Part shown: positions 30,383 through 45,717 of the stretch, in pieces
Position numbering within the stretch: the first letter of the stretch is position 1
Layout: every line of letters starts with the position of its first letter
From: Methylocystis rosea SV97
Lineage (GTDB): Bacteria; Pseudomonadota; Alphaproteobacteria; Rhizobiales; Beijerinckiaceae
Length of the DNA: 64,000 nt
Direction of reading: 5' to 3'
NCBI RefSeq assembly: GCF_000372845.1
Contig: NZ_KB889963.1
Coordinates: forward strand, 2,562,304-2,626,303
The notes under the pieces: generated by a model
The model's database searches: none
What the model saw: the letters and a program-made list of their open reading frames with translations, nothing else
Told to the model about the DNA's origin: nothing
Made by a program: the position numbers and the translations under genes

Positions 30383-31441
30383 TCATCGCGGCAGCACGCC
30401 CCAATAATCAAGATCAAGCAGCACCGCCGGATCGGGCTTGCCGTCGGCTCCGTAGAGCGGGAAATAGGCGCAGGGCTTGTCCTTGGTTGCGACGAGCCGC
30501 AGGCGCAACGCGCCGATATCCTGGCGCCCGGGGATCTCCGCCTTCTCCAGAACCTCCGACCAGGCGAAGACCGTGCCCCCCGCGAACAGCGGGTTGACGT
30601 GGCGTCCGCCGTTCACGGCCGAGATATGGAAGACGTTCTCCAGGCCGTTGAAGGACAGCGCCCGGGCGAGGGAAATCACATGGCCGCCGTAGATGATGCG
30701 CTTGCCGAAACGGCCCTGCGCCTCATAGTACTGATTAAAATGAACTTTCGAGTTGTTCTGGTAGAGCCGGGTCGCGAGTTGGTGCTCCGCCTCCTCGACC
30801 GTCATGCCGTCGATATGGTCGATTTTCTCGCCCTGGTCGTAATCCCCCCAAAAATAGCGGGAGCCGGCGAGCGCCTTGTCATAGGCGCCGACATTGATCG
30901 CCGGCGCCGCCTTGCCAAGTTCGGAAGGGGCGACGGACTTCGGCAGATCGGGCACGACCTCCGGTCCCACGGGGGCGTCCCGGTCGCGCTTTTTCACCAT
31001 TACCCAGCGCGCATAGCTCAGCACGGTCTCGCCGCGCTGATTGGCGCCTGTCGTGCGCACATAGACGACGCCGGTTTCCTTGTTGGAATTTTCCTTAAGG
31101 CCGATGACTTCCGAGGTCGCCGACAGCGTGTCGCCCGGATAGACGGGGATCAGAAATTTGAAATCGGCGTAGCCGAGGTTGGCGATGGCGTTGAGCGAGA
31201 CGTCGGGCACGGTCTTACCGAGCACGAGATGAAAGACGAGCAGATCGTCGATCGGCGCGCGCTCGTAGCCGATCGCCTGCGCGAAAGCGGTCGAGGACTG
31301 CACGGCGAAGCGCGGCAAATACAGGGCCGTATACAGTGCGACCTCGCCGACTGTGACCGTCCGCGGCGCGGCGTGGCGAATGATCTGGCCGATTTTAAAG
31401 TCTTCGAAAAAATTGCCGACGTTGATCTTCGACTTGCTCAT
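30383..31441 (-). CDS. mch: Mesaconyl-CoA hydratase (beta-methylmalyl-CoA dehydratase, MaoC-like)
   Basis: 352 residues, two MaoC-type hotdog domains. N-terminal marks: NVGNFFEDFKIGQIIRHAAP, RTVTVGEVALYTALYLPRFA. C-terminal marks: SRYFWGDYDQGEKIDHIDGM, RIIYGGHVISLARALSFNGL. The enzyme interconverts mesaconyl-C1-CoA and beta-methylmalyl-CoA in the ethylmalonyl-CoA pathway (also named MeaC or Mcd). That pathway regenerates glyoxylate for the serine cycle in methylotrophs and serves acetate assimilation in other alphaproteobacteria. It is not clustered here with other pathway genes; yggU follows three bases upstream of its start. Confidence 0.9.
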   Translation of the reverse strand: MSKSKINVGNFFEDFKIGQIIRHAAPRTVTVGEVALYTALYLPRFAVQSSTAFAQAIGYERAPIDDLLVFHLVLGKTVPDVSLNAIANLGYADFKFLIPVYPGDTLSATSEVIGLKENSNKETGVVYVRTTGANQRGETVLSYARWVMVKKRDRDAPVGPEVVPDLPKSVAPSELGKAAPAINVGAYDKALAGSRYFWGDYDQGEKIDHIDGMTVEEAEHQLATRLYQNNSKVHFNQYYEAQGRFGKRIIYGGHVISLARALSFNGLENVFHISAVNGGRHVNPLFAGGTVFAWSEVLEKAEIPGRQDIGALRLRLVATKDKPCAYFPLYGADGKPDPAVLLDLDYWGVLPR

Positions 31442-31789: not shown

Positions 31790-32078
31790 GCGCGTAGGCG
31801 CCGGCGCTGTTGGCGATGAGATCGCGCAGGAACTGCATGAGCAGCAGCAGGATGAGCGGCGAGATGTCTAATCCGCCGACGCTGGGCAGCACCGAGCGGA
31901 TCGGACCCAGCAGCGGCTCGGTCATGGCGTTCAGCCATTTCCAGATCGAATAGGCGACGTTCGAGCGCATATTGATGACGTCGAAGGCCGTGAGCCAGGA
32001 CACAACCACCGTGGCGAGCAGAATCCACCAGTAAATATCGATGATCGTGAGAAGAAGTTTGACCATAGCGTAGGACAT
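31782..32078 (-). CDS. YggT family membrane protein
   Basis: 98 residues with two hydrophobic segments (LLTIIDIYWWILLATVVVSW and SPLILLLLMQFLRDLIANSA) and the family blocks TAFDVIN and MTEPLLGPIRSVLPSVGGLD. YggT proteins are conserved inner-membrane proteins, linked in some bacteria to osmotic tolerance or to cell-division positioning. It overlaps the downstream DUF167 gene. Confidence 0.92.
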   Translation of the reverse strand: MSYAMVKLLLTIIDIYWWILLATVVVSWLTAFDVINMRSNVAYSIWKWLNAMTEPLLGPIRSVLPSVGGLDISPLILLLLMQFLRDLIANSAGAYALG

Positions 32079-32257
32079 GACCGGCTTCCAGCGGATGAGG
32101 TTCCGCCCTGTCTAGCCTCCCTGCCCCGTCGCGGCAATCCTTGGGGGCGCGGCACCCTCATGCGACAAGAATTCGCGATGGCAAGCGCTTGGCGGCGCTT
32201 GGCGGCGCCAACACGATTGACAGGCTATCGCCCCCCGTGTACCCCACGCGCCGGAGC

Positions 32258-32333
32258 GGGGCTGTAGCTCAGATGGGAGAGCGCTGCAATCGCACTGCAG
32301 AGGTCCGGGGTTCGATTCCCCGCAGCTCCACCA
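32258..32333 (+). tRNA. tRNA-Ala (anticodon CGC)
   Basis: 76 bases with encoded CCA. Acceptor GGGGCTG pairs with CAGCTCC. The D arm is GCTCAGATGGGAGAGC, the anticodon stem is CTGCA/TGCAG around loop ATCGCAC (anticodon CGC, codon GCG), and the T arm is CCGGGGTTCGATTCCCCG. The last bases are duplicated at 45718-45730, so this tRNA is the likely integration site of a genomic island. Confidence 0.95.
32320..32332 (+). repeat. Putative attL core within the tRNA-Ala 3' end
   Basis: CCGCAGCTCCACC here is repeated exactly at 45718-45730, about 160 bases beyond the 5' end of the integrase remnant. P4-type integrases use tRNA 3' ends as attachment sites, so the pair looks like the direct repeats flanking an integrated element of about 13.4 kb. 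Confidence 0.65.
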
Positions 32334-32593
32334 AATGACAACATAAGCTCCTGAATTTATGTTACCTTTTGAAGCGGCCGCTTCTTTACGCGCATATCTG
32401 CGTACAACAAATCCCCTCACCGTTGCGTCCGCGCGCTGAGGGGGTGTTTGGCGAGGGCGCAGAAGCACGCTGCCGCTCGGCGCGATGAAGGGTTCAGAGC
32501 CGGCTCTTCAAATTTTCGGACTGCGGTCATGCGGAGCCGCGGAGCCGCTCTGGTGAAAGGCCATTTTAGGAACTGCCGGCGACGTTCAACTCC

Positions 32594-33094
32594 ATGCCGA
32601 GACCGGTCGCTGAGAAGCCGATGTTTCGATCGGCATCAGTGCGCGCCGCGCGTCATCAGCTGGGCTTCTATGAATGGACGCGAGTACGCCGACTTTTCTT
32701 AGCGCCTGACCGCCGGCTGCTCGCCTTCGCTAGGCTCTGGGAAAGCGTACCAATCCCAGAGACAAAGAAGATGATCGACTCGACGACGATCATTGTCAGG
32801 CCCGCTAACGATTGGATGAGCCGCTTTCATGATCGGATGCCGGTAATTCTCGGCTGGCGCGAGGTCGGGGCGTGGCTGGTCGGCGGCGATCCTGCCGCGC
32901 TGTTGCACGCGCCTACCGAGGACGCGTTGCAAGAATGGATCGTCTCGCCGCGCGTGAACCGCTCGGGCATCGGCGATGACGATCCGACACTGATCGGGCT
33001 TCAAGACTGGGCACTTCGAAGACCGCTTAGCGCCAGGAGCAGACTTTCCGCGACCGCGACCGCGCCAAAGGCTTACTCGCGACATAAATTTTGA
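32594..33094 (+). pseudogene. Remnant of an SOS response-associated peptidase (SRAP/YedK) gene
   Basis: The frame carries the middle and C-terminal parts of a YedK/HMCES-like protein: VAEKPMFRSASVRAAR, GFYEWTRVRRLFLAPDRRL, LLAFARLWESVP, STTIIVRPANDWMSRFHDRM then PVIL, and ALQEWIVSPRVNRSGIGDDD. The N-terminus with the catalytic Cys2 (MCGR) is missing, the AET segment before VAEKP lies in another frame, and the C-terminal tail is not family-like. SRAP proteins crosslink to abasic sites in single-stranded DNA. The gene is decayed and cannot give an active enzyme. It lies just inside the proposed island, next to the tRNA. Confidence 0.7.
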
Positions 33095-33331
33095 GCAATC
33101 GCCAAAAAGCACACGTCGGACATAACAATACGCCGAAAGAACGAACGCTCTGGTCACTGGCGCGATCGAATTCAACGCAAAAGATTTAGAGAGCGTCGGC
33201 GATGGCGAAACGGCGGCCCGCTCGAACATAAAAGCCGCGAGGATACTTTTTGGCGCTGCAACTGCAAAGCCTGCTCGTGATCCTCTTGGCGACGCCGCTC
33301 GTATAAACATCCGGGGTCGTCAGGAGACTCG

Positions 33332-33736
33332 ATGTTCCGCATCATCTTTGCCTATGCAGGCGCGGCTTTCGGCATGCTGGCGCTGGACGTGATCTGGCTA
33401 ACATCGATGGCCGAGAGCTTTTACCGGCCGCAACTCGGTGTGCTGCTCGCGGATGACTTTCGGGCTGCGCCGGCGATTGCCTTTTACGCGCTCTACCTAT
33501 TCGGAGTTGTCTATTTTGCATGCGCGCCCGCGCTCCAGAATGGCGACTGGCGGAAGGCGACGCTGAATGGGGCTGTGTTCGGCCTTGTCGCTTACGGCAC
33601 GTATGACCTGACCAATCAAGCGACGCTCAATCACTGGCCCGTGCTCGTAACAATCGTTGATTTGTGCTGGGGTGTTTTCCTCACCGCGATTGCGGCATCC
33701 GCAGGCTATGCCGCCGCAAGGCGCTTCACGGGATGA
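33332..33736 (+). CDS. DUF2177 family membrane protein
   Basis: 134 residues, four hydrophobic segments: IIFAYAGAAFGMLALDVIWL, FYALYLFGVVYFACAP, LNGAVFGLVAYGTYDLTNQA, VTIVDLCWGVFLTAIAASAG. The YGTYDLTNQATLxxWP and DxxWG blocks are the DUF2177 signature. Function unknown. DUF2177 genes often accompany cyclopropane-synthase/ChrR stress clusters, and here it adjoins one. Its stop overlaps that of the convergent gene by 11 bases. Confidence 0.87.
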   Translation: MFRIIFAYAGAAFGMLALDVIWLTSMAESFYRPQLGVLLADDFRAAPAIAFYALYLFGVVYFACAPALQNGDWRKATLNGAVFGLVAYGTYDLTNQATLNHWPVLVTIVDLCWGVFLTAIAASAGYAAARRFTG

Positions 33737-34298
33737 GGAGACCTTGTTCGCGCCGTATGGACATAAACATCCATGCTGCTATCACGCTCAAAGTAGAGGC
33801 GGAATAGAAGTTGAGGGAGCTTAGGGCTTCTTGCTGCGTCGCATCCATCGGATATAGGGGCTGCCCGTAACCGCCATGCAGCAGCATGAATAGGCAGAGT
33901 AGTGCTCCGACATAGGCGCCGAGCGCACGCATATCCGTCCTGCGACACGACAGAACGGCGATTATCAGACATGGCGCGAGAAACCACTCGACGCCGGACC
34001 CCTCGCCAAAAATGAAGGCGCAAAAAAACGTGTTGATCGCGCCGACGGCGGGGAACCACAAGCGTCCAACGTCCGGGAACCGCCTCGCCATCCATGGCGA
34101 AGCGAGAAAAAACGGGGTGGAAAGCAGCGTCAGAGCGAGAAGCGCGTGCGCTTCTCCGGTCACCCAACGCACGTAGAGCGGATAGAATGGCTGGTTCGAC
34201 GCGAGGATCAGCGCGAGCCTGTTGGACGTCGCCGTCAGCGGATCGGCGGCGGCGGCGTAGTCTTTCACACGCCGCCTAAGCGCGTGCAGATTATCCAC
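33726..34298 (-). CDS. Hypothetical polytopic membrane protein
   Basis: About 190 residues with five or six hydrophobic segments (HALLALTLLSTPFFLASPWM, LWFPAVGAINTFFCAFIFGE, VEWFLAPCLIIAVLSC, LGAYVGALLCLFMLLHGGYG, SASTLSVIAAWMFMSI). No family recognised. It resembles membrane sensor regions of cyclases or kinases but lacks an output domain. It is last in the minus-strand arm of the sigma/ChrR cluster. A GTG at 34298 overlaps the methyltransferase stop (GTGGATAA); an ATG at 34343 is also possible but lies within the conserved end of that gene. Confidence 0.6.
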   Translation of the reverse strand: MDNLHALRRRVKDYAAAADPLTATSNRLALILASNQPFYPLYVRWVTGEAHALLALTLLSTPFFLASPWMARRFPDVGRLWFPAVGAINTFFCAFIFGEGSGVEWFLAPCLIIAVLSCRRTDMRALGAYVGALLCLFMLLHGGYGQPLYPMDATQQEALSSLNFYSASTLSVIAAWMFMSIRREQGLLIP

Positions 34299-35322
34299 GG
34301 GATGGACGCAGGCGATAGTGGCTGACGCCCCATTCCTCACCATTGCGATCGCCGAAAAGGCCTTCTGTTGCGAGGAAAAACAGTCGCCAGCGGCGGCGCC
34401 AGAGCGTGGCGTCGCTTCCGTAGGTTTCGCTCAGGACCGCGTTGATCTCGTCCCGACGGGCGTCGAAATTGCGAAGCCAGTCGATCGCCGTGCGCTGGTA
34501 ATGAAGGCCGCTCCACAGCCATTCTGCCTCGACTTCGAAGAGATCCCCGAAGCTGTGAATGAGCTGACGGCTTGGCATGATGCCGCCCGTAAAGAAATGC
34601 TGCGCGATCCAGTCGGCTTTCTCGGTGTGATCGAAGCGATAGGGTTGGTTGCGGTGCGTGAAGATATGGATGAAAAGCGATCCTTCCGGCGAAAGCCAGC
34701 CGCGCAACCGCGAGAGCAGCGGGCGCCAGTTCGACATATGCTCGAACATCTCGATCGACACGATCCGGTCGAAGCGCTGATCCATGGCGAAATCGTTCAT
34801 ATCCGCCGTGATCACGCGCAAATTCGTTAGACCCAGCTCCGCAATTCGCCCCTCAATATAGGCGCGCTGGCTCGCGGAGTTGGACACCGCGGTGATATGG
34901 GCGTTCGGGTAGCTCTGCGCCATGAAGAGCGAAAGCGATCCCCACCCGCAGCCGAGTTCTAGAATCCTCTGACCATCGGCCAGCCCGGCGTCCCGCGCGG
35001 TTTCTTCGAGCGCGCGCTCCTCCGCCTGGGCGAGCGTGGTTTCGGCCGAGTCGTAATAGCAGCACGAATATTTGCGGCGCGGCCCGAGCGTCAGTTCGAA
35101 AAATCGCGCGGGCACTTCATAATGCTGCGCGTTGGCTTCCCGCGTGTGGATCGCGATGGGGTAGTTTGCCATGTCGCGCGCAAATGCTTCCACGGCCGCT
35201 GGCGGGGCCAGGCTGAGGCGGTCCCGCGTGCGGCCGACGAGATAACCGACGCCCATGCGCAAAACCGAGTCAGGCAGGGGCGCGCGTTCGACGACGCTGA
35301 CGGCCGAAGCGATAAGGGACAT
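34291..35322 (-). CDS. Cyclopropane-fatty-acid-synthase-like SAM methyltransferase
   Basis: 343 residues, class I methyltransferase of the Cfa family. SAM motif I is ILELGCGWGSLSLFMAQSYP. Other Cfa-type blocks are YSCCYYDSAETTLAQAEERA, DRIVSIEMFEHMSNWRPLLS and FFTGGIMPSRQLIHSFGDLF. It lacks the roughly 90-residue N-terminal Cfa domain and is divergent from the second Cfa-like enzyme at 39759. Such enzymes transfer a methyl(ene) group to unsaturated phospholipid acyl chains. In the furan fatty acid pathway an extra SAM methylase (FufM) methylates the furan ring, and this gene could play that part, but sequence alone does not show it. ATG 35322 has GGAGGA 7 bases upstream. Confidence 0.85.
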   Translation of the reverse strand: MSLIASAVSVVERAPLPDSVLRMGVGYLVGRTRDRLSLAPPAAVEAFARDMANYPIAIHTREANAQHYEVPARFFELTLGPRRKYSCCYYDSAETTLAQAEERALEETARDAGLADGQRILELGCGWGSLSLFMAQSYPNAHITAVSNSASQRAYIEGRIAELGLTNLRVITADMNDFAMDQRFDRIVSIEMFEHMSNWRPLLSRLRGWLSPEGSLFIHIFTHRNQPYRFDHTEKADWIAQHFFTGGIMPSRQLIHSFGDLFEVEAEWLWSGLHYQRTAIDWLRNFDARRDEINAVLSETYGSDATLWRRRWRLFFLATEGLFGDRNGEEWGVSHYRLRPSRG

Positions 35323-35343
35323 TCGACGATCCTCCAACCAGAT

Positions 35344-36147
35344 TCACAAGCGCTTTTGCGGGCCGGGAAAAAAGACGTTCACACGCGCCTGGTAGGCGCG
35401 GAACGCGTCTCCGCGCGACGCCAGCATATGCTTTTCAAGCGGCGGAACGCCGGAGACATGGGCGAGCAGCCAGTACATGAAGGCCGGCGCCAGCATTGCG
35501 AGCCAGCCCTGCGGCCAGGCGCCGCTAAAGTCGATCGCGACGACCGCGAAGCCGGCCCAGTTCAGCCACTGGAAAAAGTAGTTGGGATGCCGCGACCAAG
35601 CCCACGGCCCCTCCATGCAGACGCTTCTGCCAGGACCGCGCGTCGCGCGAAAGCGCGCAAGCATCGCGTCGGACCAGGCCTCGCCCGCGATCGCGGAGAC
35701 CAGAATGACCGCGCCGGCAATGTCGGTTGGGGCCGGAAAGGCGACGGGATTGCGGGCGGCAAGAAAAACAGCGAGCGACAGCAGGAACGCGCAGCCCGCC
35801 TGAATCTGCAGGAACCAGAACAGGCGCCACGGAAAATCGGCGCCCCACTCCACGGCCAGCTCGAAATAGCGCGGATCTTCGCCAGCGTTGATGCTGCGCG
35901 CGATGATATGCAGTCCAAGACGCGCCGCGCCGGCAACCGCGAAAGCGGCGACGAAAACCTGCCGTGCGCCCGGCGCTCCGCCATCGAGCGGCGCCAGCGC
36001 GAGAAACGCTCCTGCTGCTCCGATGGCGAAGGACCATGTCGCGTCGATCCAGCCGGACTGGCCGGTCCTGCGCTGCAGGAGCCATGCAAAAGCCATGACC
36101 GCAGAGAGGCCGCTCGCCGTCGCGAGCAGAAGAAGTCCAAGACTCAT
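35344..36147 (-). CDS. DUF1295 membrane protein (steroid 5-alpha reductase-like)
   Basis: 267 residues, about six transmembrane segments. The C-terminal block CMEGPWAWSRHPNYFFQWLN is the DUF1295/5-alpha-reductase/ICMT signature, and AVMAFAWLLQRRTGQSGWID is the N-terminal block. These membrane enzymes act on double bonds of lipid-like substrates or on isoprenyl cysteines. It follows chrR with an ATGA overlap and precedes the Cfa-like methyltransferase by about 20 bases. Position in the sigma/ChrR operon suggests a step in membrane lipid modification during oxidative stress. Confidence 0.87.
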   Translation of the reverse strand: MSLGLLLLATASGLSAVMAFAWLLQRRTGQSGWIDATWSFAIGAAGAFLALAPLDGGAPGARQVFVAAFAVAGAARLGLHIIARSINAGEDPRYFELAVEWGADFPWRLFWFLQIQAGCAFLLSLAVFLAARNPVAFPAPTDIAGAVILVSAIAGEAWSDAMLARFRATRGPGRSVCMEGPWAWSRHPNYFFQWLNWAGFAVVAIDFSGAWPQGWLAMLAPAFMYWLLAHVSGVPPLEKHMLASRGDAFRAYQARVNVFFPGPQKRL

Positions 36148-36803
36148 ATGTCCCGGAACTTCTGATAGAGACGTCCGAACCAGCTGCTCGGACGCGTGCG
36201 TCCTTCCATGGCGATCAGACAGAGACACGGATCGCCCGCGTCAATCATGATGTCGTGCTCGACCTCTTCGTCGACCTGCGCCACATCGCCCGGCCCGAAA
36301 TGCGCGTCGCGATCACGAAACCCGCCGCGCAGCACACAGGTCGCCTCGTCGCCCACATGTCCGTGCCGGGGAACGGTCATGCCCGGAGCGATCTCGAGCA
36401 GAAAGGCGCGCGACGCGCCATGTTCCGGCAGGGCGATGCTTGCGGACCGGACGCCAGGCGCAATCCAACGCCAATGGTGGATGTCGACACTGGCGAGGGG
36501 GGCCGGCAAAGCAAATCCCTCTGGCAATTTGGGATGCGTCGCCTTGCGCTTGGGAAGGTCGACGGCCGGCTCCCCATCCGTGTCGAGTGCGCGCAGGGCG
36601 CGGTTCCACGCGGCGGGGTCAACATCCGCTGGCGCGAGTTCCTCGAGCAGTGCGCCGCCAAGCGCCTCGAAGTGTGCGTGCAGCCGCCGTGAGGCCGGCG
36701 ACATTGCGAGATGCGTCTCGATGAGCAGCGAAAACGCCGGATCGAGCGCGCCCGTCGCATGGCGCAGGATAAGATCCTCGGGCGCATGGCCGGGATTTGT
36801 CAT
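36144..36803 (-). CDS. chrR: ChrR-type cupin anti-sigma factor with altered zinc site
   Basis: 219 residues. The N-terminal anti-sigma domain (1-85) has His6 and His31, but the two cysteine ligands known from Rhodobacter ChrR (35 and 38) are serines: ETHLAMSPASRRL. The C-terminal cupin keeps all four metal ligands with conserved spacing: His147 and His149, Glu153 (RHGHVGDEATC) and His183 (EEVEHDI). In Rhodobacter, ChrR binds sigmaE and releases it on singlet oxygen; the N-terminal zinc is needed to hold sigmaE. Coupled by overlap to the sigma gene upstream and to DUF1295 downstream. Confidence 0.9.
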   Translation of the reverse strand: MTNPGHAPEDLILRHATGALDPAFSLLIETHLAMSPASRRLHAHFEALGGALLEELAPADVDPAAWNRALRALDTDGEPAVDLPKRKATHPKLPEGFALPAPLASVDIHHWRWIAPGVRSASIALPEHGASRAFLLEIAPGMTVPRHGHVGDEATCVLRGGFRDRDAHFGPGDVAQVDEEVEHDIMIDAGDPCLCLIAMEGRTRPSSWFGRLYQKFRDI

Positions 36804-37378
36804 GATCCAAGATCCTCGAGTTCCGCACGCAGGCGCTGAACCGCCAGCCGCACGCGCGATTTCACCGTGCCGAGCGGCACGCCGAGCATCCGCGCGATTT
36901 CCGACTGGGGGTGTTCCTCGAAATAGAAGAGTTCGATGATGTGCGCCTGCTCGGCCGGGAGTGCGGCCAGCGCCGCGTGCAGGCGGGAGCGCCGCTCATT
37001 CATGATGGCGATCGCTTCGCCGCTCGGCGGCGCATCCGGCTCCTCACTTGGATCGCGTTCGAACCCATCGATGTTGCGCTCGCCGCGCAGTCGATCGATG
37101 CGCAGGTTTCGCGCAATGACAAAAATCCAGGTCGACGCCGCCGCCGCGCGCGGATCGAAGCTATCGGCCTTGCGCCAGACGCGCAGCAGCGCTTCCTGCG
37201 CGAACTCTTCCGCGCCGGCGGGCGACGCGCCAACGCGCAGCATATAGGCCTTCACGCGCGGGAAATAGTAAGCGAACAGGGCCGCGAAGGCCCCGCGGTC
37301 CTGCGTTTCGGCAATTCGCCTGATGAGGCTTGTCGCTTCCGCCGAAGACAAGGCGGCGGGCGCCGTTCGCAGGGTCAT
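36800..37378 (-). CDS. rpoE: ECF RNA polymerase sigma factor (ChrR-partnered, sigmaE type)
   Basis: 192 residues from ATG 37378. Region 2 is ALFAYYFPRVKAYMLRVG with EEFAQEALLRVWRKADSFDP and STWIFVIARNLRIDRLRGER. Region 4 is AALPAEQAHIIELFYFEEHP with SEIARMLGVPLGTVKSRVRL. Its stop overlaps the chrR start, the usual sigma/anti-sigma layout. An upstream ATG (37462) would add 28 residues but lies at the expected transcription start of a promoter of the sigma's own class, so it could only serve a leaderless message. It should direct the two divergent promoters next to it. Confidence 0.9.
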   Translation of the reverse strand: MTLRTAPAALSSAEATSLIRRIAETQDRGAFAALFAYYFPRVKAYMLRVGASPAGAEEFAQEALLRVWRKADSFDPRAAAASTWIFVIARNLRIDRLRGERNIDGFERDPSEEPDAPPSGEAIAIMNERRSRLHAALAALPAEQAHIIELFYFEEHPQSEIARMLGVPLGTVKSRVRLAVQRLRAELEDLGS

Positions 37379-37467
37379 CGTCGACGCTTCCCGAAGACGC
37401 GATTCCGCGACGGCGCGCCGGTCCGGGATCTCGACAGTCTGTGTAGCGACAGCGCCAATCATGCTCC

Positions 37468-37497
37468 CTTCTACGCGCGGCCTGCGAATTTGGATCA
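37468..37497 (-). promoter_or_regulatory. SigmaE-type promoter of the rpoE-chrR arm
   Basis: On the minus strand TGATCC (37497-37492) is followed by exactly 18 bases and TAGAAG (37473-37468). TGATCC as -35 with an 18-base spacer is the pattern of Rhodobacter sigmaE promoters. It faces the sigma-factor gene and implies autoregulation. The predicted start is near 37461. Confidence 0.75.
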
Positions 37498-37535
37498 CCG
37501 GGCTACGCGGTTCGTCTGGCGGCGCCCGAAACGAG

Positions 37536-37565
37536 TGATCCATTGGCCAAGCCCGAGCGTATAAC
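37536..37565 (+). promoter_or_regulatory. SigmaE-type promoter of the FAD/DUF1365/Cfa arm
   Basis: TGATCC (37536-37541), an 18-base spacer and TATAAC (37560-37565) match the sigmaE promoter pattern. It lies back to back with the rpoE promoter, 38 bases between the two -35 boxes. It would start transcription near 37571, so the FAD oxidoreductase start must lie after that. Confidence 0.8.
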
Positions 37566-37632
37566 GCTGCAGACCGTAAAGGACAGGATTGTGACGGCGC
37601 AAGAAAGAGAGAAGTTGCACGAGAGGCGGAGG

Positions 37633-38955
37633 ATGGCGCCTAGCGGCCTGAATAAACGGCTGAAAATTGCTGTGCTCGGGGCCGGCGTCACGGGTCTTTC
37701 AGCGTCGTGGCTTTTGTCTCATGCGCATGAGGTCACGATTTTCGAGCAGGGCGACTATGCCGGCGGGCATAGCAACACCGTCGAGGTCGAGGGGCCGTTG
37801 GGCCCGATCGCGGTCGACACCGGGTTCATCGTCTATAATGAGCCGGCCTATCCAAATCTGACGAAGCTTTTCGAGCATCTCGGCGTCCGCACGAAGCCGA
37901 GCGAGATGACTTTCGCGGTGTCGATGGCGGACGGGGGGCTCGAATATGCGGGCAACGACCTCTTCACACTCTTTGCGCAGAAGAAAAACATCGTCAGCCC
38001 GCGCTTCTGGTCGATGCTCCTCGACATTCGTCGGTTTTATGCTGAGGCGCCCAGTCAAATCGCGCAGATGGAGGGCATGACGCTCGGCGATTATCTCGAC
38101 ATGCACCGCTACGGCGCGCCCTTCCGTGAGGATCATCTTTATCCGATGGCGGCGGCGATCTGGTCGCTTCCCGCGCGCGATGTCGCCGCATATCCGGCGC
38201 GGGCGTTCACGCGCTTTTGCGAAAATCACGGGCTGCTGAAGATTACCGGCCGGCCGGTGTGGCGTACGGTCGAAGGCGGTAGCCGCGAATATGTGAAAAA
38301 GCTGACTGCGCCGGTCGGCGAGCGTGTGCTGTTGAACGCTTCGGTGCGGCGGGTTACCCGCGCCGACGATGGCGTTGTCGTCGAATGGTCCGGCGGCGCG
38401 CAGCGTTTCGATCATGTGGTGATCGCCGCGCATGCGGATCAGGCGTTGCGCATGCTCGGCGATCCGTCCGCGGAGGAAACGCGGCTGCTCTCGCGCTTTC
38501 GTTACAGCTGCAACGAAACTATCCTTCACGGCGACGCGGCGCTGATGCCGAGACTGCGTTCAATCTGGTCGAGCTGGAACTATCTCGCATCCGGTCCGGA
38601 CTCTCCGCTCTGCGTCACCTACTGGATGAACCGGCTTCAGGACCTCTCGCCGTCGACGCCGCTCTTCGTGACGCTGAACGCCATTACGCCGCCGCGCGAC
38701 GACCTTGTCTCCCGCCGCTTCGTGTATGAGCATCCGATATTCGATCTCGCCGCCATCGACGCCCAGCGCGAACTCTGGTCGCTTCAGGGCGTGCGCCGCA
38801 CTTGGTTCTGCGGCGCCTATTTCGGGTCGGGGTTTCATGAAGACGGGCTGCAGTCCGGCCTTGCCGTTGCGGAACAGCTTGGCGGCGTGCGGCGGCCCTG
38901 GACTGTCGAAAACGAATCCGGCCGCATCCATGTCGGCCCGGCGCCGCGGGCATAG
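37633..38955 (+). CDS. FAD/NAD(P)-binding amine-oxidase-like oxidoreductase (COG2907 type)
   Basis: About 440 residues. The Rossmann FAD site is KIAVLGAGVTGLSASWLLSH with VTIFEQGDYAGGHSNTVEVE; later blocks are PIAVDTGFIVYNEPAYPNLT, TGRPVWRTVEGGSREYVKKL and the closing GAYFGSGFHEDGLQSGLAVA. This family regularly sits with DUF1365 and Cfa genes in sigmaE/ChrR regulons. The furan fatty acid desaturase UfaD is a candidate equivalent, but this needs alignment. Start: ATG 37633 (GAGAGG upstream); GTG 37591 with AAGGA 7 bases upstream is nearly as good. An earlier TTG at 37543 lies inside the promoter. Confidence 0.85.
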   Translation: MAPSGLNKRLKIAVLGAGVTGLSASWLLSHAHEVTIFEQGDYAGGHSNTVEVEGPLGPIAVDTGFIVYNEPAYPNLTKLFEHLGVRTKPSEMTFAVSMADGGLEYAGNDLFTLFAQKKNIVSPRFWSMLLDIRRFYAEAPSQIAQMEGMTLGDYLDMHRYGAPFREDHLYPMAAAIWSLPARDVAAYPARAFTRFCENHGLLKITGRPVWRTVEGGSREYVKKLTAPVGERVLLNASVRRVTRADDGVVVEWSGGAQRFDHVVIAAHADQALRMLGDPSAEETRLLSRFRYSCNETILHGDAALMPRLRSIWSSWNYLASGPDSPLCVTYWMNRLQDLSPSTPLFVTLNAITPPRDDLVSRRFVYEHPIFDLAAIDAQRELWSLQGVRRTWFCGAYFGSGFHEDGLQSGLAVAEQLGGVRRPWTVENESGRIHVGPAPRA

Positions 38956-38964
38956 GAGCGGACG

Positions 38965-39771
38965 ATGGCGGTGAACAGCGCGCTCTATGTCGGTTCGGTG
39001 GCGCATCGCCGTCTGCGGCCGAAAGCGCACCGGCTACGCTATCGCGTCTTCGCGCTGCTGCTCGATCTCGACGAGTTGCCGTCGCTCGACAAACAGCTCC
39101 GGCTGTTCTCGCTCGCGCGCTTCAATCTCTTCGGATTTCGCGCGCAGGATCACCTTTTCGCCCGCACTGGCGATCTGCGCAGCGAAGTCGAGTCGATCTT
39201 GCGCGACGCCGGTCTCGAGGCGCGGGGCGGCGCGATCCGCCTCTTGACCATGCCGCGCATTCTCGGTTTCGCCTTCAATCCGCTGAGCATCTTCTTCTGC
39301 TATCGCGTCGATGGCGCGATACAGGCGATCCTCTACGAGGTCAACAACACATTCGGGCAGCGTCACGCTTATCTCTTTCCGGTCAACGCGGACCGCAAAG
39401 AGCTTCGTCACGACTGTTCGAAGCAGTTCTATGTTTCGCCCTTCGTGGCGATGGACATGGCGTACAGTTTCCGGATCAAGCCGCCGGACGACGCCTACAC
39501 GATCTCGATATCGGTTGCGGACGACGCCGGCGACATGCTGATCGCCACGCAGCGCCTCGCGCGCCAGACGCTCGACGATCACGCCTTGCTGCGCGTCTTT
39601 CTCTCGCATCCGCTGCTGACGCTGAAAGTGATCGCCGGCATTCACTACGAAGCGTTGCTGATCTGGCTCAAGGGCGTCCGGCTGCATGTCCGGCCGCCGC
39701 CGCCTGATCGCGCCGTAACCGTCGTCATCAAGCAAAACAGCGAAAAGGAAAGCCTTTCATGTCAGATCTGA
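38965..39771 (+). CDS. DUF1365 family protein
   Basis: 268 residues. Family blocks: SALYVGSVAHRRLRPKAHRL, RILGFAFNPLSIFFCYRVDG, ILYEVNNTFGQRHAYLFPV, KQFYVSPFVAMDMAYSFRIK. No clear transmembrane helix except weak segments near the end. DUF1365 is nearly always next to Cfa-like synthases and COG2907 oxidoreductases. Its job is undefined, but a role in cyclopropane or furan lipid formation is likely from context. Its stop overlaps the next start by 13 bases. Confidence 0.9.
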   Translation: MAVNSALYVGSVAHRRLRPKAHRLRYRVFALLLDLDELPSLDKQLRLFSLARFNLFGFRAQDHLFARTGDLRSEVESILRDAGLEARGGAIRLLTMPRILGFAFNPLSIFFCYRVDGAIQAILYEVNNTFGQRHAYLFPVNADRKELRHDCSKQFYVSPFVAMDMAYSFRIKPPDDAYTISISVADDAGDMLIATQRLARQTLDDHALLRVFLSHPLLTLKVIAGIHYEALLIWLKGVRLHVRPPPPDRAVTVVIKQNSEKESLSCQI

Positions 39772-40997
39772 CGTCCCCCGGCACACAGGGTCTTTCGGTG
39801 TCGGGTCGCATTGCCGGGAGCGGCATGGGGCTTTCGGCGCTTGTCCTGCGCAAGGTGATGGCGGCGATGGAGAAGGGCCGTCTGATCTTCGTGCTCCCGG
39901 ACGGGACGCGCGTCGACTGTCACGGTCCAAAGCCGGGGCCGGAAGCGACAATCGTTGTTCACAAAATGTCGGCGCTTCGGCGGCTACTGTTCTCCGGCGA
40001 CGTCGCCTTCGCGGAGGCTTTCCTTCGCGGAGAGTGGAGCAGCCCCAATCTTGTTTCCGCAATCGAGGTTGCGGCTGTCAATGGCGACGCCTTCATGCGC
40101 GCGGTGCAGGGCTTCGCGCCGGCCCGTTTCGCAAACTGGCTGATGCATCGCTTGCGCGCCAATTCCCGCGCCGGCAGCCGGCGCAACATCGCCGCGCATT
40201 ACGATCTGGGCAATGAATTCTATCGCCTGTGGCTCGATCCGCAGATGTTCTATTCGTCCGGTATCTATCCAACGGGAGAAGAGACACTTCAACAGGCGCA
40301 GCGCAACAAGATTGATCGCGTGCTCGATCTGCTCGACGCGCGTAATGGCGAAACGGTCCTAGAGATCGGCTGCGGCTGGGGCGGTCTCGCCGCCGAGATG
40401 GCGCAGACGGGCGCGGGCGCCATCACTGGACTGACGCTTTCGAAGCAACAGCTCGCCAACGCGCAAGACGTGATTGCGAAGCGCGGCCTTCAGTCAAGGG
40501 TCGATCTTCGTCTGCAGGATTATCGCGACGTCTCCGGCGTCTTCGACCGCATTGTCTCGATTGAAATGATCGAGTCGGTCGGCCGCGACTATTGGCCCGT
40601 CTATTTCTCGACGCTGCGCGATCGACTCGCGCCGGGCGGCTATATCGTGTTGCAGGCGATCACCATAGAAGACGGCCGCTTTGAGGAGTACATGAACACG
40701 CCGGATTTCATCCAGCGCTACATCTTTCCGGGCGGCGCGCTTCCCTGTCCGCGCGCCCTGCAGGAGGAAGCGGATCGCGCGGGTTTGCGCCTCGAAACGA
40801 TCGAGACGTTCGGCGACGGCTATGCGCGAACGGTCGCCGACTGGCGTCGTCGCTTCCATGCGAACTGGAACGAGATCGAAGCGCTCGGTTTCGATCCGTC
40901 CTTCCGGCGGCTGTGGGACTACTACCTCTGCTATTGCGAAGGCGGCTTCCGCGCCAGCGCGATCGATGTAGGGCTTTATCGGCTCACCCATGCATGA
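39759..40997 (+). CDS. cfa: Cyclopropane-fatty-acyl-phospholipid synthase family methyltransferase
   Basis: 412 residues. The N-terminal Cfa domain (ALVLRKVMAAMEKGRLIFVL, LLFSGDVAFAEAFLRGEWSS) precedes the SAM domain: NIAAHYDLGNEFYRLWLDPQ, MFYSSGIYPTGEETLQQAQ, motif I VLEIGCGWGGLAAEMAQ, DRIVSIEMIESVGRDYWPVY and FIQRYIFPGGALPCPRALQE. Enzymes of this family methylenate cis double bonds of phospholipid acyl chains to cyclopropanes, or methylate them to 11-methyl chains (UfaM type) as the entry to furan fatty acids. Length and order match a full Cfa. Confidence 0.92.
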   Translation: MSDLTSPGTQGLSVSGRIAGSGMGLSALVLRKVMAAMEKGRLIFVLPDGTRVDCHGPKPGPEATIVVHKMSALRRLLFSGDVAFAEAFLRGEWSSPNLVSAIEVAAVNGDAFMRAVQGFAPARFANWLMHRLRANSRAGSRRNIAAHYDLGNEFYRLWLDPQMFYSSGIYPTGEETLQQAQRNKIDRVLDLLDARNGETVLEIGCGWGGLAAEMAQTGAGAITGLTLSKQQLANAQDVIAKRGLQSRVDLRLQDYRDVSGVFDRIVSIEMIESVGRDYWPVYFSTLRDRLAPGGYIVLQAITIEDGRFEEYMNTPDFIQRYIFPGGALPCPRALQEEADRAGLRLETIETFGDGYARTVADWRRRFHANWNEIEALGFDPSFRRLWDYYLCYCEGGFRASAIDVGLYRLTHA

Positions 40998-41012
40998 CGA
41001 AAGGAGGCAATA

Positions 41013-41402
41013 ATGCGCAATAGGCTACTTGCCCGTTTCTTTTCTATCCTCTTCGGGACAATGCTGATCCCAGGATTCGCTAGCGCCGAGAATAACGGCA
41101 TTCTCGGCAGTTGGGCGCGTGGCGACGGCAATGCCCGTGTGCGCATCGCGCCCTGCGGCGGCGCGCTTTGCGCGATTAATACCTGGATTCGCGATCCATC
41201 GAGCGACGAACATGTCGGCGATCGGCTGGTGATGAAAGTTTCGGGCGGCGATTCCTCCATGTCCGGCACTGCCTATGACCCGCAGCGTAAGCTCAATTAC
41301 CGCCTCGAGATCAATTACGGCTCGCAGTCGATGCAGACTCGCGGATGCGTGCTCGCGGGGATCGTCTGCAAATCGATCAGTTGGACACGCGTGTCGCGTT
41401 GA
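41013..41402 (+). CDS. DUF2147 exported protein
   Basis: 129 residues. Signal peptide LARFFSILFGTMLIPGFASA ends before ENNGILG. The DUF2147 pattern GSWARGDGNARVRIAPCGGA, LCAINTWIRDP and SGTAYDPQRKLNYRLEINYG, ending in GCVLAGIVCKSISWTRV, is clear. Small beta-rich periplasmic domain of unknown role, often beside lipid-modification genes. It has AGGAGG upstream and lies 15 bases after the Cfa gene, so it belongs to the same operon. Confidence 0.87.
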   Translation: MRNRLLARFFSILFGTMLIPGFASAENNGILGSWARGDGNARVRIAPCGGALCAINTWIRDPSSDEHVGDRLVMKVSGGDSSMSGTAYDPQRKLNYRLEINYGSQSMQTRGCVLAGIVCKSISWTRVSR

Positions 41403-41428
41403 CGCGTCAGCGCCACCCGAGGGAGAAC

Positions 41429-41950
41429 ATGATGAAAAAGAACAGCGTCATTCGCTCTCTGCTGATCCTTCTGGCGCTCGGCGCCAGCGCGCAGGCGCTC
41501 GCGCAGGACCGCCCGGTAAGACCGATCGACCCGGCGCGCTTCTATCGGGGAACCTGGCTCGAAGTCGCCCGCCGCCCCATGTGGATCACCGACGGCTGTG
41601 TAAGAGGAACGACGAGTTATGCACGCGGCGCGCAGCCCAATCAGGTCCATGTGCGTGACGCCTGTCGCAAGGGTGCCGAAGAGACTGTTCTCAATGGCGA
41701 CGCCGAGATCCTCGATCCGGGCGTCAATTCCAGGCTGATGGTTCGCTACAATCCGCTGCTGTCGGTCGAATACAACATCGTCGATCACGCGCGCGACTAC
41801 AGTTGGTTCATCGAGACCAGCCCGACGCTGGACAATGTGTTCATTTTCACGCGCAGATTGCCATCGAAGAAACAGTTGTCGGCGCTGGTGAACCGCACCC
41901 GGGCGCTTGGTCATGATACATCGGCGCTGGAATTTCCATGGAGTAAATAG
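41429..41950 (+). CDS. Lipocalin-family (Blc-like) exported protein
   Basis: 173 residues. Signal peptide MMKKNSVIRSLLILLALGAS ends near ALAQDR. The lipocalin opening is present as PARFYRGTWLEVARRP (a variant of the GxW motif), followed by NPLLSVEYNIVDHARDYSWF and ETSPTLDNVFIFTRR. Bacterial lipocalins bind lysophospholipids or fatty acids, and a role in lipid repair or traffic fits the operon. GGGAGAAC precedes ATG 41429; in-frame codons before it overlap DUF2147. Last gene of the plus-strand arm. Confidence 0.85.
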   Translation: MMKKNSVIRSLLILLALGASAQALAQDRPVRPIDPARFYRGTWLEVARRPMWITDGCVRGTTSYARGAQPNQVHVRDACRKGAEETVLNGDAEILDPGVNSRLMVRYNPLLSVEYNIVDHARDYSWFIETSPTLDNVFIFTRRLPSKKQLSALVNRTRALGHDTSALEFPWSK

Positions 41951-42301
41951 TCCCTTGGCGACGCGCCGCTCATCGTCGATTTGTCGGAGTTTTTCTTCCC
42001 AAAGCGTAACGTCTGCTTTGGGTCAAAACCGGACTGACGTGGGATTTGTCTTTTCCACGACGCCAGAGCCCAGGCGAATGCACGGCGACCGAGGCACTCG
42101 TTCATTCGCGCGCCTCTTTCTAATCGGTGCGCGATTGCGTTTTTGGCCAATTTGACCCCCGATATCAATTTCGCGACGGAGAAGACGGCGGACCCCACCC
42201 GGTGACCGCCCCCTGGGGCGGCAGGGATTTGCACCCCCCTACCCCTGCGCTCCACCTCGTGCGACATGGTCATCGCCCGGCTCGGACGGCGGCGGCGCCG
42301 A
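41951..42301. other. Intergenic region between lipocalin and island protein
   Basis: About 350 bases between convergent genes. No gene, terminator or repeat is supported. A minus-strand frame that extends the island protein's region downstream (42275-42400) reads RSVAGYQRSGPQRIDQEVVE, which looks more protein-like than the annotated C-terminal tail and hints at a frameshift near 42400. Confidence 0.4.
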
Positions 42302-43237
42302 TCAGAACGCCGCCGCGCCCGAACTCCTCGACAACTTCCTGATCGATACGCTGCGGTCCCGAGCGCTGGTATCCGGCGACCGAGCGCCCCAGGCGCGAGA
42401 GCGCGAGCCGGACATCCCCATGTCGGGCTCACCTGCCTCATTTTCGTTTGCGGAAAGTTGGGTGGCCACCATCCCAATTGATTCCTTATATGTCGTTGCC
42501 ACCATACTTTCCGCACCATCCGAGAGGGTTTCCTCCAAGGCGGCTTGGCGCGCTTGGCGCGCCGCCGCCAGCAAGGCTCCGCGCTGTCCGGGGCTCCTGC
42601 GGTCGTATGTGTCGCGAGAAATACGGGCGAGCGCGCAGGCTTCACGTATCAGCGCGGCGTTGTCGAGATAGACCGCACGAGTCGGTCGTAGGGCGTCGCG
42701 GCGCTGCTTGGCGCGCCGCTCGCGCTCATTCACAGTCCTGGCCCGCCGACGTTCGGCGGCGCGCACGCGAGCCCTATCGCGGCGAGCGGCGTCCATCTCC
42801 TCGGGCGTCTGATCGCAGGCGCCGAGCAACCACGCCCTGTTTTCGAGACGCCATGCCGCCGTGATGCCGAGCCGGCGCGCGGCGGCGAATCGGTCATGAC
42901 CGTTGTGAAGCTTGATGCGATCAAGCGAGGATTTCACGCAAGCGATGATCTCGTCCGGCAGCTCCTCGTCGAGATCGAAAGGAGCATTCTTGCCCTTGAA
43001 GAAGAAATCGCCGAGCCGGGTTCCCCGCCAATAGCCCGGCGAACCGTCGCTGTTTAGGGATTCATAGAACCCGGCGGGGGTGATGTTGCCCTCGTCGACC
43101 ATCAGGTCGGTGAAATACTGCCAGTCGAACCCCGGGATCGTCCGGGCATGTCGGGCGAATTTTTGAAACTGCGCGCGACGGAAGCGCGCGACCATAACCA
43201 TCTTTTTCAGACCGATGGGCAGGGAGCGGGCGCTCAT
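42302..43237 (-). CDS. Hypothetical island protein, 311 aa
   Basis: No family recognised. The N-terminal third is globular (KFARHARTIPGFDWQYFTDL, YESLNSDGSPGYWRGTRLGD). The middle is very basic and helical (RARVRAAERRRARTVNERER) and is followed by a possible helix-turn-helix-like stretch NAALIREACALARISRDTYD. The composition suggests nucleic-acid contact. It is flanked by an AlpA regulator and an integrase remnant, so it is probably mobile-element cargo or machinery. The last 35 residues are low-complexity Ser/Arg and may be read in the wrong frame. Confidence 0.55.
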   Translation of the reverse strand: MSARSLPIGLKKMVMVARFRRAQFQKFARHARTIPGFDWQYFTDLMVDEGNITPAGFYESLNSDGSPGYWRGTRLGDFFFKGKNAPFDLDEELPDEIIACVKSSLDRIKLHNGHDRFAAARRLGITAAWRLENRAWLLGACDQTPEEMDAARRDRARVRAAERRRARTVNERERRAKQRRDALRPTRAVYLDNAALIREACALARISRDTYDRRSPGQRGALLAAARQARQAALEETLSDGAESMVATTYKESIGMVATQLSANENEAGEPDMGMSGSRSRAWGARSPDTSARDRSVSIRKLSRSSGAAAF

Positions 43238-43496
43238 CGGCGCGCCTCCCCGATAAAGGCGCGAAGCGACGCGAGGTTATCGCCACGCCGGCCGGAGGCG
43301 TCGTCACGCCATTTCCAATTCAGGCGATTGACGCGAAGCCGCGAGAATTTCGGGCGAGATCGGCCCGGCTCGGAATTTGTTGCCGCGACGAGTCCGCTGC
43401 GGTATTTTCGACGGTGACCCCACCCAAGGTGTCACGGTTTTGAAAGCTGCCCCCTGCCTCACGCGGGGGCGGCTTTCGCCATTTTGGCGCGGACAT

Positions 43497-43739
43497 TTAC
43501 GCGGCCGCCGACTCGCGGGAGGCGAGCTTCGCCTTCTGCCAAGCGGCGACTTCATCGGCGCGCCACGCGCAGAGGCGCGCGCTGATGCGAAAATTTTTCG
43601 GAAACGTGCCCGACGCCATCATTTGATAAATGGTCGACGTGGGCAGGCCCGTAATGCGGCTCACTTCGGGGCGACGCAGGAATTGAATGAGTTCCGGCCC
43701 GCACGACGCCGGGATATCGCGCTTTGTTGGTTTCAGCAT
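43497..43739 (-). CDS. AlpA-family transcriptional regulator/excisionase
   Basis: 80 residues with a MerR-like winged helix: LIQFLRRPEVSRITGLPTST, IYQMMASGTFPKNFRISARL and CAWRADEVAAWQKAKL. This is the AlpA/phage Cox-like pattern that regulates or assists excision in P4-type elements. It lies downstream of the integrase remnant on the same strand, as expected for such an element. Confidence 0.88.
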   Translation of the reverse strand: MLKPTKRDIPASCGPELIQFLRRPEVSRITGLPTSTIYQMMASGTFPKNFRISARLCAWRADEVAAWQKAKLASRESAAA

Positions 43740-43805
43740 GTTCCAAACCTCCTTAGAAGGTTCGGAACAACTACGCGCGATGCGTTGTGACAGTGGCCGG
43801 CAGTG

Positions 43806-44408
43806 TCACAACTTTTTTTCGCGGCGGTGGCGATACCACAACGCTCTATTGCCGGCCGCGGCGCCCAAGCCTTCCTTTGCGCACTGTCCGGCCGCTCCCG
43901 AGACAGTCATCTTCGGCATTAAACTTTCCATACGGGCGAGGACTCTTTCGGTCTTTGGCCTTTTCCACTTGGCTGCTTTGTGTCCCCCGGCCTTCGCGCT
44001 CTCCACAACTTTCTCTCCGCGAAGCGCGTCAGCTTCCCATCCCCACTTCAACTTCGCCGTAGCCCATTCCACGCCAACAATGGATGCTAACCGCGCCGCA
44101 CGGTCGGCGTCGCCGCTGTTGATTGCCTCTTTCGTCGCTGCGATGAATTGAAGAATTCGTTGCGCAAAATCCTCGGGAGTGTCAATTATCGGGACGGCAT
44201 CTTTCGCCTCCGACAAGATTTGTTCGCAGGTTCTGATGACGGGAAGCCACGTGGCATGAAAGATGCCGCCTTCTTTTACGGCTCGATTCCAGGCATTGGC
44301 AGACTTATCGAACGTTTCCGACAAGGCCGACGCATCTTCAGGGCTAGTTGCGTATGCAGTGACCTTGTAGGCGGTGATTCCAGTGCCCCTGTCGACCTTG
44401 CGCGGCAT
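43806..44408 (-). CDS. Hypothetical island protein, 200 aa
   Basis: 200 residues starting MPRKVDRGTGITAYKVTAYA. No family recognised. It has helical segments FAQRILQFIAATKEAINSGD and RAARLASIVGVEWATAKLKW, and a basic C-terminus ending ALWYRHRREKKL. Its ATG overlaps the original integrase stop (TAATG), which ties it to the integrase transcript. The TWLPVIRTCEQILSEAKDAV region is probably helical. Likely accessory protein of the element. Confidence 0.6.
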   Translation of the reverse strand: MPRKVDRGTGITAYKVTAYATSPEDASALSETFDKSANAWNRAVKEGGIFHATWLPVIRTCEQILSEAKDAVPIIDTPEDFAQRILQFIAATKEAINSGDADRAARLASIVGVEWATAKLKWGWEADALRGEKVVESAKAGGHKAAKWKRPKTERVLARMESLMPKMTVSGAAGQCAKEGLGAAAGNRALWYRHRREKKL

Positions 44409-45557
44409 TAGCGCGCCCTCGCGATCGGGACGACGTTTCCGCCCTTCTCGGCCGGCCGCGCGCAATATGCGGCCCAGTCGCGCATGAGGCGCGCGCGCTT
44501 CTCGAATAGCTCGCCGCGCCGCTAAGCCGCCTCGACCTTGTCGCTGACGACATGCGCCAGCGCGGTTTCGCTCACGATGTTTGGATGGTTTGTGGCTTCG
44601 CTAGCCCAATCCTTGAACGCCGATCGGAATCCGTGAACGGTCAGGCCAGGACGCATGCCGCGCAGCAATTCCAGCATCGCCATATTGGAAAGGCCCGCGC
44701 CCTTCCTTGGCCCCGGAAACACGTGCGTCTCGCCCTTTAGGCGCGGCAACGCTGTGAGAACTTCGACGGCTCGGTCAGATAGCGGAATGCGATGCTCTCG
44801 GCCTCCTTTCATGCGATCGGCGGGGACCGTCCACTCCTTCGCCTTAAGATCTATTTCGGGCCAGCGGGCACCAATGACTTCGCCCGTCCGGGCCGCCGTT
44901 AAAATGCAAAATTCAAGCGCACGCGCCGAGAGGCTGTCACGCTCGCGCAGCTCACCCATGAACGCGGGGATATCCCGCCAAGGCAGCGCCGGATGATGCT
45001 GCACGCGCTTTGCCTTCCCAGGCGCAGGCAAAGGCATTCCGGCGTTCACCCAATGGACGACGCGCTCGATGCGCTGCTTCGTCCGGCTCGCCGTCTCCGG
45101 CGTTTTCTTCCAGATCGGCGCGAGAGTGTGATTGATGATCGGCGCGTCGATCGCCTTGACAGGGCGGGTGCCAATGGCGGGATAAGCATATTTTTCAAGC
45201 GTCGCTCGCCATTGCCAGCGATGCTTTTCATTCCGCCAGCCGGACTCGTGAACCTTCAAGAACCGCTCGGCCGCATCCTTAAAGGTGATGCGCTCCGCTT
45301 CGTCCTTGCGGCGCGCGTCACGCTCAGCAAGTCGCGCCTCGATAGGGTCTATGCCGTCCGCAATCTGTTGGCGCGTCAGCCGAGCGCGCTCTCGCGCCTC
45401 GGCGAGGGAAAAGTCATTGACGCTGCCCAAGCCCATTTTGCGGGCGCGGCCATTAAGCTGAAAGCGGAAGATCCATGACTTCGTGACGACGCCCTTGTCG
45501 CCGATGTCGGCGCACTGGAGGTACAGCGCGCGCGCTCAATTTCGCAAGCTTCCGCAT
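44408..45557 (-). pseudogene. P4-type tyrosine integrase, decayed (amber at catalytic Tyr, 5' deletion/frameshift)
   Basis: The middle is a clear DUF4102/phage integrase: SWIFRFQLNGRARKMGLGSV, NDFSLAEARERARLTRQQIA, AARTGEVIGARW (catalytic Arg) and TVHGFRSAFKDWASEATNHP with ALAHVVSDKVEAA. At 44524-44522 a TAG stands where the family has Tyr (AAYxRxxLFEKR). The same frame then continues RRGELFEKRARLMRDWAAYC to a TAA at 44410-44408. At the 5' end MRKLAKLSARAV (from 45557) is in another frame than LYLQCADIGDKGVVTKSWIF, with the linking KPGxxADGGG segment missing. A truncated product could start at 45436. The gene cannot encode an active recombinase. Confidence 0.87.
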
Positions 45558-45717
45558 TTCGATTTTTCTCAAAAACTGCGCACATGCCTACGCACGTTCA
45601 GTTCTTGGAATGTGCCAGAAAGTGTCGGAAGCGTCCAGAGCGAATGCCAGCGCAAGTTGTGGATAATCAAGGAATTATTGTAGGGCTTCGGAACACCTCG
45701 GAAGTTAACTTAGCGGG

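Follow-up and report, generated by a model that had tools for sequence, protein, structure and literature searches.

Furan fatty acids are membrane antioxidants whose bacterial pathway has so far been worked out in purple photosynthetic bacteria. PMC7380195 assigns to it a methylase (UfaM), a desaturase (UfaD), a DUF1365 protein (UfaO) and a second methylase, FufM (RPA0924). In Rhodopseudomonas palustris CGA009 the first three are encoded together as ufaD-ufaO-ufaM (RPA2571-2570-2569), and the trio of CMAS proteins treated there consists of RPA2569, RPA3082 and RPA0924. In Rhodobacter sphaeroides the ufaD-ufaO operon adjoins rpoE-chrR, the genes for sigmaE (of the ECF11 type) and its anti-sigma factor ChrR (PMC6852236, PMC7074977), with ufaM (RSP_2144) lying elsewhere. 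The genes ufaM, ufaD and ufaO are also consecutive in Halomonas sp. YLGW01, whose UfaM made 11-methyl-octadecenoate in Escherichia coli (PMC12089945). Here we describe a block of about 8.7 kb in the genome of Methylocystis rosea SV97 (3.91 Mb, two contigs) that contains genes for a sigmaE (rpoE) and an anti-sigma factor of the ChrR family, together with a predicted set of all four furan fatty acid enzymes. The stretch analysed, called the window below, comprises 64,000 nt (NZ_KB889963.1:2562304-2626303), and the block spans its positions 33278-41950. Judged by its sequence, this block is very probably a furan fatty acid cassette under sigmaE/ChrR control.

The block contains predicted counterparts of all four enzyme types of R. 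palustris CGA009 and has the same gene order, ufaD-ufaO-ufaM. Two other Rhodopseudomonas genomes, R. palustris JSC-3b and Rhodopseudomonas sp. B29, have a DUF1295 gene beside fufM as the window does, but in both of them fufM lies away from the ufa operon and rpoE-chrR was not found in either stretch, whereas in M. rosea everything is found within the 8.7 kb. The rpoE-chrR pair is homologous to that of R. sphaeroides; however, ufaM is here part of the operon and fufM of the block. Furthermore, R. sphaeroides sigmaE also drives rpoHII (PMC6852236), and a table in PMC7074977 lists phrA and others alongside it, while in M. rosea our strict promoter motif finds no site beyond the block. The zinc-finger cysteines of R. 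sphaeroides ChrR are missing from its M. rosea counterpart. Halomonas sp. YLGW01 shares the consecutive ufa genes, but the part of PMC12089945 available describes neither a fufM nor a linkage to sigmaE/ChrR; the present block has a fufM candidate and this linkage. The pathway is thus of a known type, and what is distinctive in M. rosea is the compact layout and the cysteine-less ChrR.

The genes that a sequence-only reading had named between 33332 and 41950 were all recovered there, in the order that it gave, by domain searches and open frames. Relatives of fufM were collected by a scan with a 19-row alignment of the protein encoded at 34291-35322, and the best 80 of 577 confirmed relatives, some of them at loci cut by contig ends, are the 80 named fufM loci referred to below. 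They include JSC-3b and B29, each of which has a separate locus with ufaD-ufaO-ufaM in the order of the window. The window proteins are 45-47% (UfaD), 44-46% (UfaO) and 46% (UfaM) identical to these orthologues. The UfaD candidate is an amine-oxidase-like protein (PF01593) using flavin adenine dinucleotide (FAD) and is orthologous to the product of the first gene of the Rhodopseudomonas ufa operon, and the DUF1365 protein whose gene adjoins ufaD and ufaM would be UfaO. The FufM candidate is 59-62% identical to the JSC-3b and B29 proteins whose genes adjoin DUF1295. The strongest CMAS proteins of B29 are three, the UfaM orthologue, one of true-Cfa type and the one of FufM type beside DUF1295, and as this trio parallels that of CGA009 in PMC7380195 the last of the three was tentatively taken as FufM by elimination. 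Because the second Cfa-like protein of the block is this FufM candidate, the predicted end product is a dimethyl furan.

A tree of 34 CMAS rows, rooted at the midpoint, placed the protein encoded at 39759 inside the UfaM clade (98/93; its position within the clade was not resolved) and the one at 34291 with rows from Rhodopseudomonas, Caulobacter and Rhizobium (100/100). E. coli Cfa and the four Cfa-like rows formed a separate clade (99/94) that included neither. Tree and orthologue comparison are therefore the opposite of what the sequence-only reading had named as fatal to a furan pathway, namely a clustering of the proteins with standard cyclopropane synthases and with oxidoreductases of unrelated kinds, and together with the 44-47% identity of UfaD and UfaO to the Rhodopseudomonas ufa operon proteins they bear out its attribution. 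Among NCBIfam models those for Cfa equivalogs head the list for both CMAS proteins, but both score far under the cut-offs and neither reaches any of them, and the closest solved structures to the FufM candidate are coclaurine-type N-methyltransferases. The earlier reading had also counted a DUF1295 enzyme among the pathway steps. Its two Cfa-like methyltransferases and its FAD enzyme stand, but DUF1295 was rejected as the furan-forming enzyme, since PMC7380195 assigns the oxygen step to DUF1365.

The residues of the active site point in the same direction for UfaM. In E. coli Cfa a bicarbonate, thought to accept the proton in cyclopropane closure, is held by Glu239, His266 and Tyr317 (PMC11387697). 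In the window UfaM the equivalents of Glu239 and Tyr317 are kept and Gln replaces His266; positions 139 and 240 (E. coli numbering) are both Ser. We compared 79 distinct rows, 68 of UfaM encoded beside ufaO (the window included), six of UfaM type encoded farther off and five of Cfa (E. coli Cfa and four Cfa-like proteins). Position 266 was Gln in all 74 UfaM-type rows and His in all five Cfa rows. Position 240 was His in the Cfa rows and Ala in those of UfaM type, with the Ser of the window as the one exception; position 139 was Cys in the former and either Ser or Ala in the latter. That UfaM leaves a methylated alkene might be explained simply by the loss of this bicarbonate ligand. At the place of 266 the FufM rows had His in 18 of 19 cases and Gln in one, and the window FufM candidate has all three bicarbonate ligands, Glu, His and Tyr.

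Gene content, orthology, active-site residues and promoter motifs are what the sequence itself shows. If enzyme activities, inducer, product and promoter use are read from this homology, UfaM would methylate the 18:1 chain of a phospholipid with no cyclopropane ring being formed, UfaD would desaturate the methylated chain, UfaO would insert oxygen derived from O2 and close the furan, and FufM would attach a second methyl to it. ChrR would hold sigmaE until singlet oxygen or its lipid products led to its release, and the freed sigmaE would transcribe from the three promoters of the block, yielding more sigmaE and more of the lipid enzymes. The predicted product, a dimethyl furan fatty acid, would be made under the control of singlet oxygen. 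Since furan lipids are in the R. sphaeroides model both a scavenger and a requirement of the response, a single locus would contain the complete regulatory loop.

A promoter motif, TGATCC-N16-CGTAnnA, was derived from the divergent rpoE/ufaD region of the window and its relatives, and the reversed motif served as control. The 3.9 Mb of the M. rosea genome contain three exact sites, all in the block (before DUF2177, rpoE and ufaD), against none for the control; base composition (GC content set at 0.63) predicts about one genome-wide and 0.002 in 8.7 kb. This confinement and a blastn match to congeners limited to the block, described below, indicate that the assemblage is more than chance. Across 16 genomes the motif gave 34 matches against one for the control, with at least one in 14 of them, and it was found on at least one side in 14 of 26 divergent rpoE/ufaD regions of relatives. 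With one mismatch allowed, the M. rosea genome had 10 sites (5 for the control), of which eight lie within open frames of at least 200 codons and two are identical copies, one per contig, before an open frame. By the strict motif the regulon is the block alone.

Several observations weigh against the reading of the block as a sigmaE/ChrR-controlled furan fatty acid cassette. The motif was on neither side in 12 of the 26 divergent regions. One congener (G217) has a single exact site, on the ufaD side, and another (G310) has two, before DUF2177 and on the rpoE side, while a third congener without ufaO and fufM (G285) still has one. The sole exact sites of JSC-3b and of Bradyrhizobium BTAi1 are outside both the ufa and the fufM loci, and so strict a motif would miss weaker sigmaE sites elsewhere in the M. 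rosea genome. As to the enzymes, the comparison was with JSC-3b and B29 and not with the enzyme sequences of CGA009 or R. sphaeroides, so that FufM was reached by elimination, and the strong CMAS matches of JSC-3b are of UfaM and FufM type only, with no true-Cfa type among them. Finally, regulation may differ from that of R. sphaeroides because the window ChrR is without two of the four zinc ligands required there.

The closest solved relatives of the rpoE/chrR pair are R. sphaeroides sigmaE (2q1z) and ChrR (2z2s), and by this relationship (7.2e-37) and the position of its gene beside chrR the sigma factor is probably a sigmaE of ECF11 type. The window ChrR passes the curated cut-off of TIGR02451 (168 bits against 124.5) and falls under that of the NF051881 ChrR equivalog (173.5 bits against 300). 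Aligned to 2z2s, it keeps His6 and His31 and has Ser in place of Cys35 and Cys38, so that the zinc site H-X24-H-X3-C-X2-C of zinc-binding anti-sigma (ZAS) proteins (PMC6432622) is reduced to its His pair and the protein is not counted as a ZAS protein; all four zinc ligands of the cupin domain (His141, His143, Glu147 and His177) are retained. Among 47 ChrR rows, the window and 46 relatives, 29 have both cysteines, one has a single cysteine and 17 have none. The cysteine-less rows are those of the window, two congeners, two Caulobacter and 12 others (four named Bosea), and all 17 keep the cupin ligands; in the same alignment His6 is also missing from one congener and from the 12 further rows. 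In R. sphaeroides zinc at the anti-sigma site is needed for ChrR to hold sigmaE (PMC6852236, PMC6432622). The window protein could therefore be a weakened anti-sigma factor that leaves sigmaE constitutively active and the cassette always on, an explanation also favoured by the loss of His6 in the congener. We consider it improbable, as the chrR frame is intact, with both histidines and the cupin ligands in place, and the proteins of the two congeners, 71 and 76% identical to it, are likewise cysteine-less with intact frames. The conservation of the cupin ligands throughout the cysteine-less rows suggests an altered rather than a decaying protein.

Another explanation is that the pathway ends at a monomethyl furan or a methylated diene and that the FufM-like protein uses some other substrate. 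FufM is indeed far rarer than UfaO (in 19 and 77, respectively, of 149 genomes sampled from the family), and its family is closest to amine N-methyltransferases. However, all 19 fufM genomes are among the 77 with ufaO, 59 of the 80 named loci have both ufaD and ufaO no more than 10 kb from fufM, and the candidate is 59-62% identical to the Rhodopseudomonas proteins taken as FufM by elimination, which makes a shorter pathway improbable. A general membrane-stress regulon that makes cyclopropane lipids, with both CMAS proteins as conventional Cfa enzymes, is very unlikely, for although both belong to PF02353 and have Cfa models as their first NCBIfam matches, they fall short of every Cfa cut-off and are separated from Cfa in the tree, UfaM is without Cys139, His240 and the bicarbonate ligand His266, and FufM, its bicarbonate-site residues notwithstanding, is nearest to coclaurine-type enzymes among solved structures.

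Table 1. Features of the furan fatty acid block of M. rosea SV97. Positions are those of the window; the starts of rpoE, ufaD, DUF1295, fufM and lipocalin were set from promoter motifs, overlaps and alignments.
Feature	Position	Strand	Remarks
Putative sigmaE-type promoter, TGATCC-N16-CGTATAA	33278..33306	+	Exact motif match, 25 bases before DUF2177 start codon
DUF2177 membrane protein	33332..33736	+	PF09945 3.8e-44
MASE7-like membrane protein	33726..34343	-	PF20967 3.6e-07; not named in the sequence-only reading
fufM candidate, CMAS/Cfa-like methyltransferase dependent on S-adenosylmethionine	34291..35322	-	Predicted second furan methylation; PF02353; open frame to TTG 35337
DUF1295 membrane enzyme, steroid-reductase-like	35344..36147	-	PF06966 4e-48, PF02544 1.1e-05
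chrR, anti-sigma factor with cupin domain, without two zinc-finger cysteines	36144..36803	-	TIGR02451 168 bits; PDB 2z2s 3.4e-29
rpoE, extracytoplasmic function (ECF) sigma factor (sigmaE)	36800..37378	-	Best PDB match R. sphaeroides SigE 2q1z, 7.2e-37
Putative sigmaE-type promoter of rpoE-chrR-DUF1295-fufM	37469..37497	-	Exact motif match
Putative sigmaE-type promoter of ufaD-ufaO-ufaM-DUF2147-lipocalin	37536..37564	+	Exact motif match
ufaD candidate, FAD-dependent desaturase of methylated chain	37633..38955	+	PF01593 1.2e-20; open frame to TTG 37543
ufaO candidate, DUF1365, predicted O2-using furan-forming enzyme	38965..39771	+	PF07103 8.5e-81, 271.5 bits
ufaM candidate, methyltransferase on 18:1 chain	39759..40997	+	Predicted alkene, not cyclopropane; PF02353 1.8e-80, 270.6 bits
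DUF2147 protein	41013..41402	+	PF09917 1.1e-09
Lipocalin	41429..41950	+	PF08212 2.5e-28

The limits of the block are visible in the comparison with congeners. Positions 26001-50000 of the window were compared by blastn (E 1e-10) with two congener stretches, L175, which matched at 33278-41950 (78.6%), and L174, which matched at 33350-41942 (74.2%). No match was found outside the block at this threshold, though both stretches include flanks on either side. A same-family stretch (L176) matched piecemeal between 33377 and 41293. Six genomes of the genus are in the family sample; three have ufaO and fufM, and in both congeners among these the whole block could be read, two have neither gene and one (G254) is without fufM. 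The stretch of the last (L263, G254:C52:56000-70000) has DUF2177, DUF1295 and ufaD-ufaO-ufaM together, tblastn found no relative of rpoE or chrR in it, and the genome carries Photo_RC genes. This patchy distribution fits transfer or repeated loss. Similar blocks are present in other Alphaproteobacteria. The 80 named fufM loci have DUF1295 in 69 cases, ufaD in 60, ufaO in 59, DUF2177 in 56, an rpoE-like gene in 44, ufaM in 39, chrR in 36, a MASE7-like gene in 31, DUF2147 in 20 and lipocalin in three, and 27 of them combine ufaD, ufaO, ufaM, rpoE, chrR and DUF1295.

To the left of the block are a MaoC/mesaconyl-CoA hydratase-like gene (30383-31441) and, about 0.9 kb away, a tRNA-Ala (anticodon cgc, 32258-32333). 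An island anchored at this tRNA was considered but is not supported, as the 3' end of the tRNA occurs only once in the window and no repeats flank the block in 32000-47000. To the right, at about 1.5-3.5 kb, an AlpA-like regulator and a phage-type integrase are found on the minus strand (43497-45436); they are possible remains of an integrative element, and no link to the block was found.

In fold, the model of the DUF1295 protein (pLDDT 90.5) weakly resembles steroid 5-alpha-reductase 2 (prob 1.00, E 4.7e-03, TMq 0.44) and a sterol reductase (prob 1.00, E 8.6e-03, modest TM-score), which suggests a reductase. Furans react with singlet oxygen to give an ene-dione, and our guess is that DUF1295 reduces this compound. 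One could go further and see the block as a self-contained, transferable lipid sensor, in which furan lipids would be both scavenger and trigger, the cysteine-less ChrR would sense through its cupin domain alone, sigmaE would serve the block only and DUF1295 would reduce the spent ene-dione, thereby detoxifying or recycling it. The main 18:1 acid of type II methanotrophs is omega-8 and not vaccenate, and the furan product made from it would be shifted and of a form not reported so far. This whole scheme is speculative and we think it rather unlikely.

Gene content marks the host as a methanotroph, since PF02461 (pMMO/AMO family) matches at three places, two on the chromosome with equal scores (C1:1495750-1496454 and C1:2839088-2839792) and a third, distinct one on the second contig (C2:142146-142847). 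It also has two adjacent Photo_RC (PF00124) genes of pufL and pufM type (C1:1006950-1008614), a pair that makes bacteriochlorophyll and singlet oxygen plausible in this organism. Phototrophy genes have already been published for Methylocystis (PMC7285482, PMC7660913). The earlier remark that such a system would be unexpected in a methanotroph is weakened by these genes in the host and the genus, and by the 27 comparable loci in other Alphaproteobacteria. As a mark of phototrophy fufM was rejected; Photo_RC genes are present in six of the 19 fufM genomes of the family sample (Fisher p 0.79). In the same sample ufaO is found in 30 of 43 Photo_RC genomes and in 47 of the 106 others (p 0.006, without correction for kinship).

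Placed in a model peptide, the cysteines of R. sphaeroides ChrR show a rapid reaction with singlet oxygen, and the exact role of the zinc site in sensing is stated to be open (PMC6852236, PMC6432622); ChrR proteins that naturally lack the cysteines, 17 of our 47 rows, bear on this question. For annotation, Gln in place of His266 is a simple signature separating UfaM-type methylases from cyclopropane synthases, and DUF1295 and DUF2177, as frequent neighbours of fufM, become definite candidates for components that furan lipid metabolism still lacks. The compact, sigma-controlled set of four enzymes would be useful for testing dimethyl furan synthesis. By gene content, the bacterial furan fatty acid pathway is extended here to a methane oxidiser.

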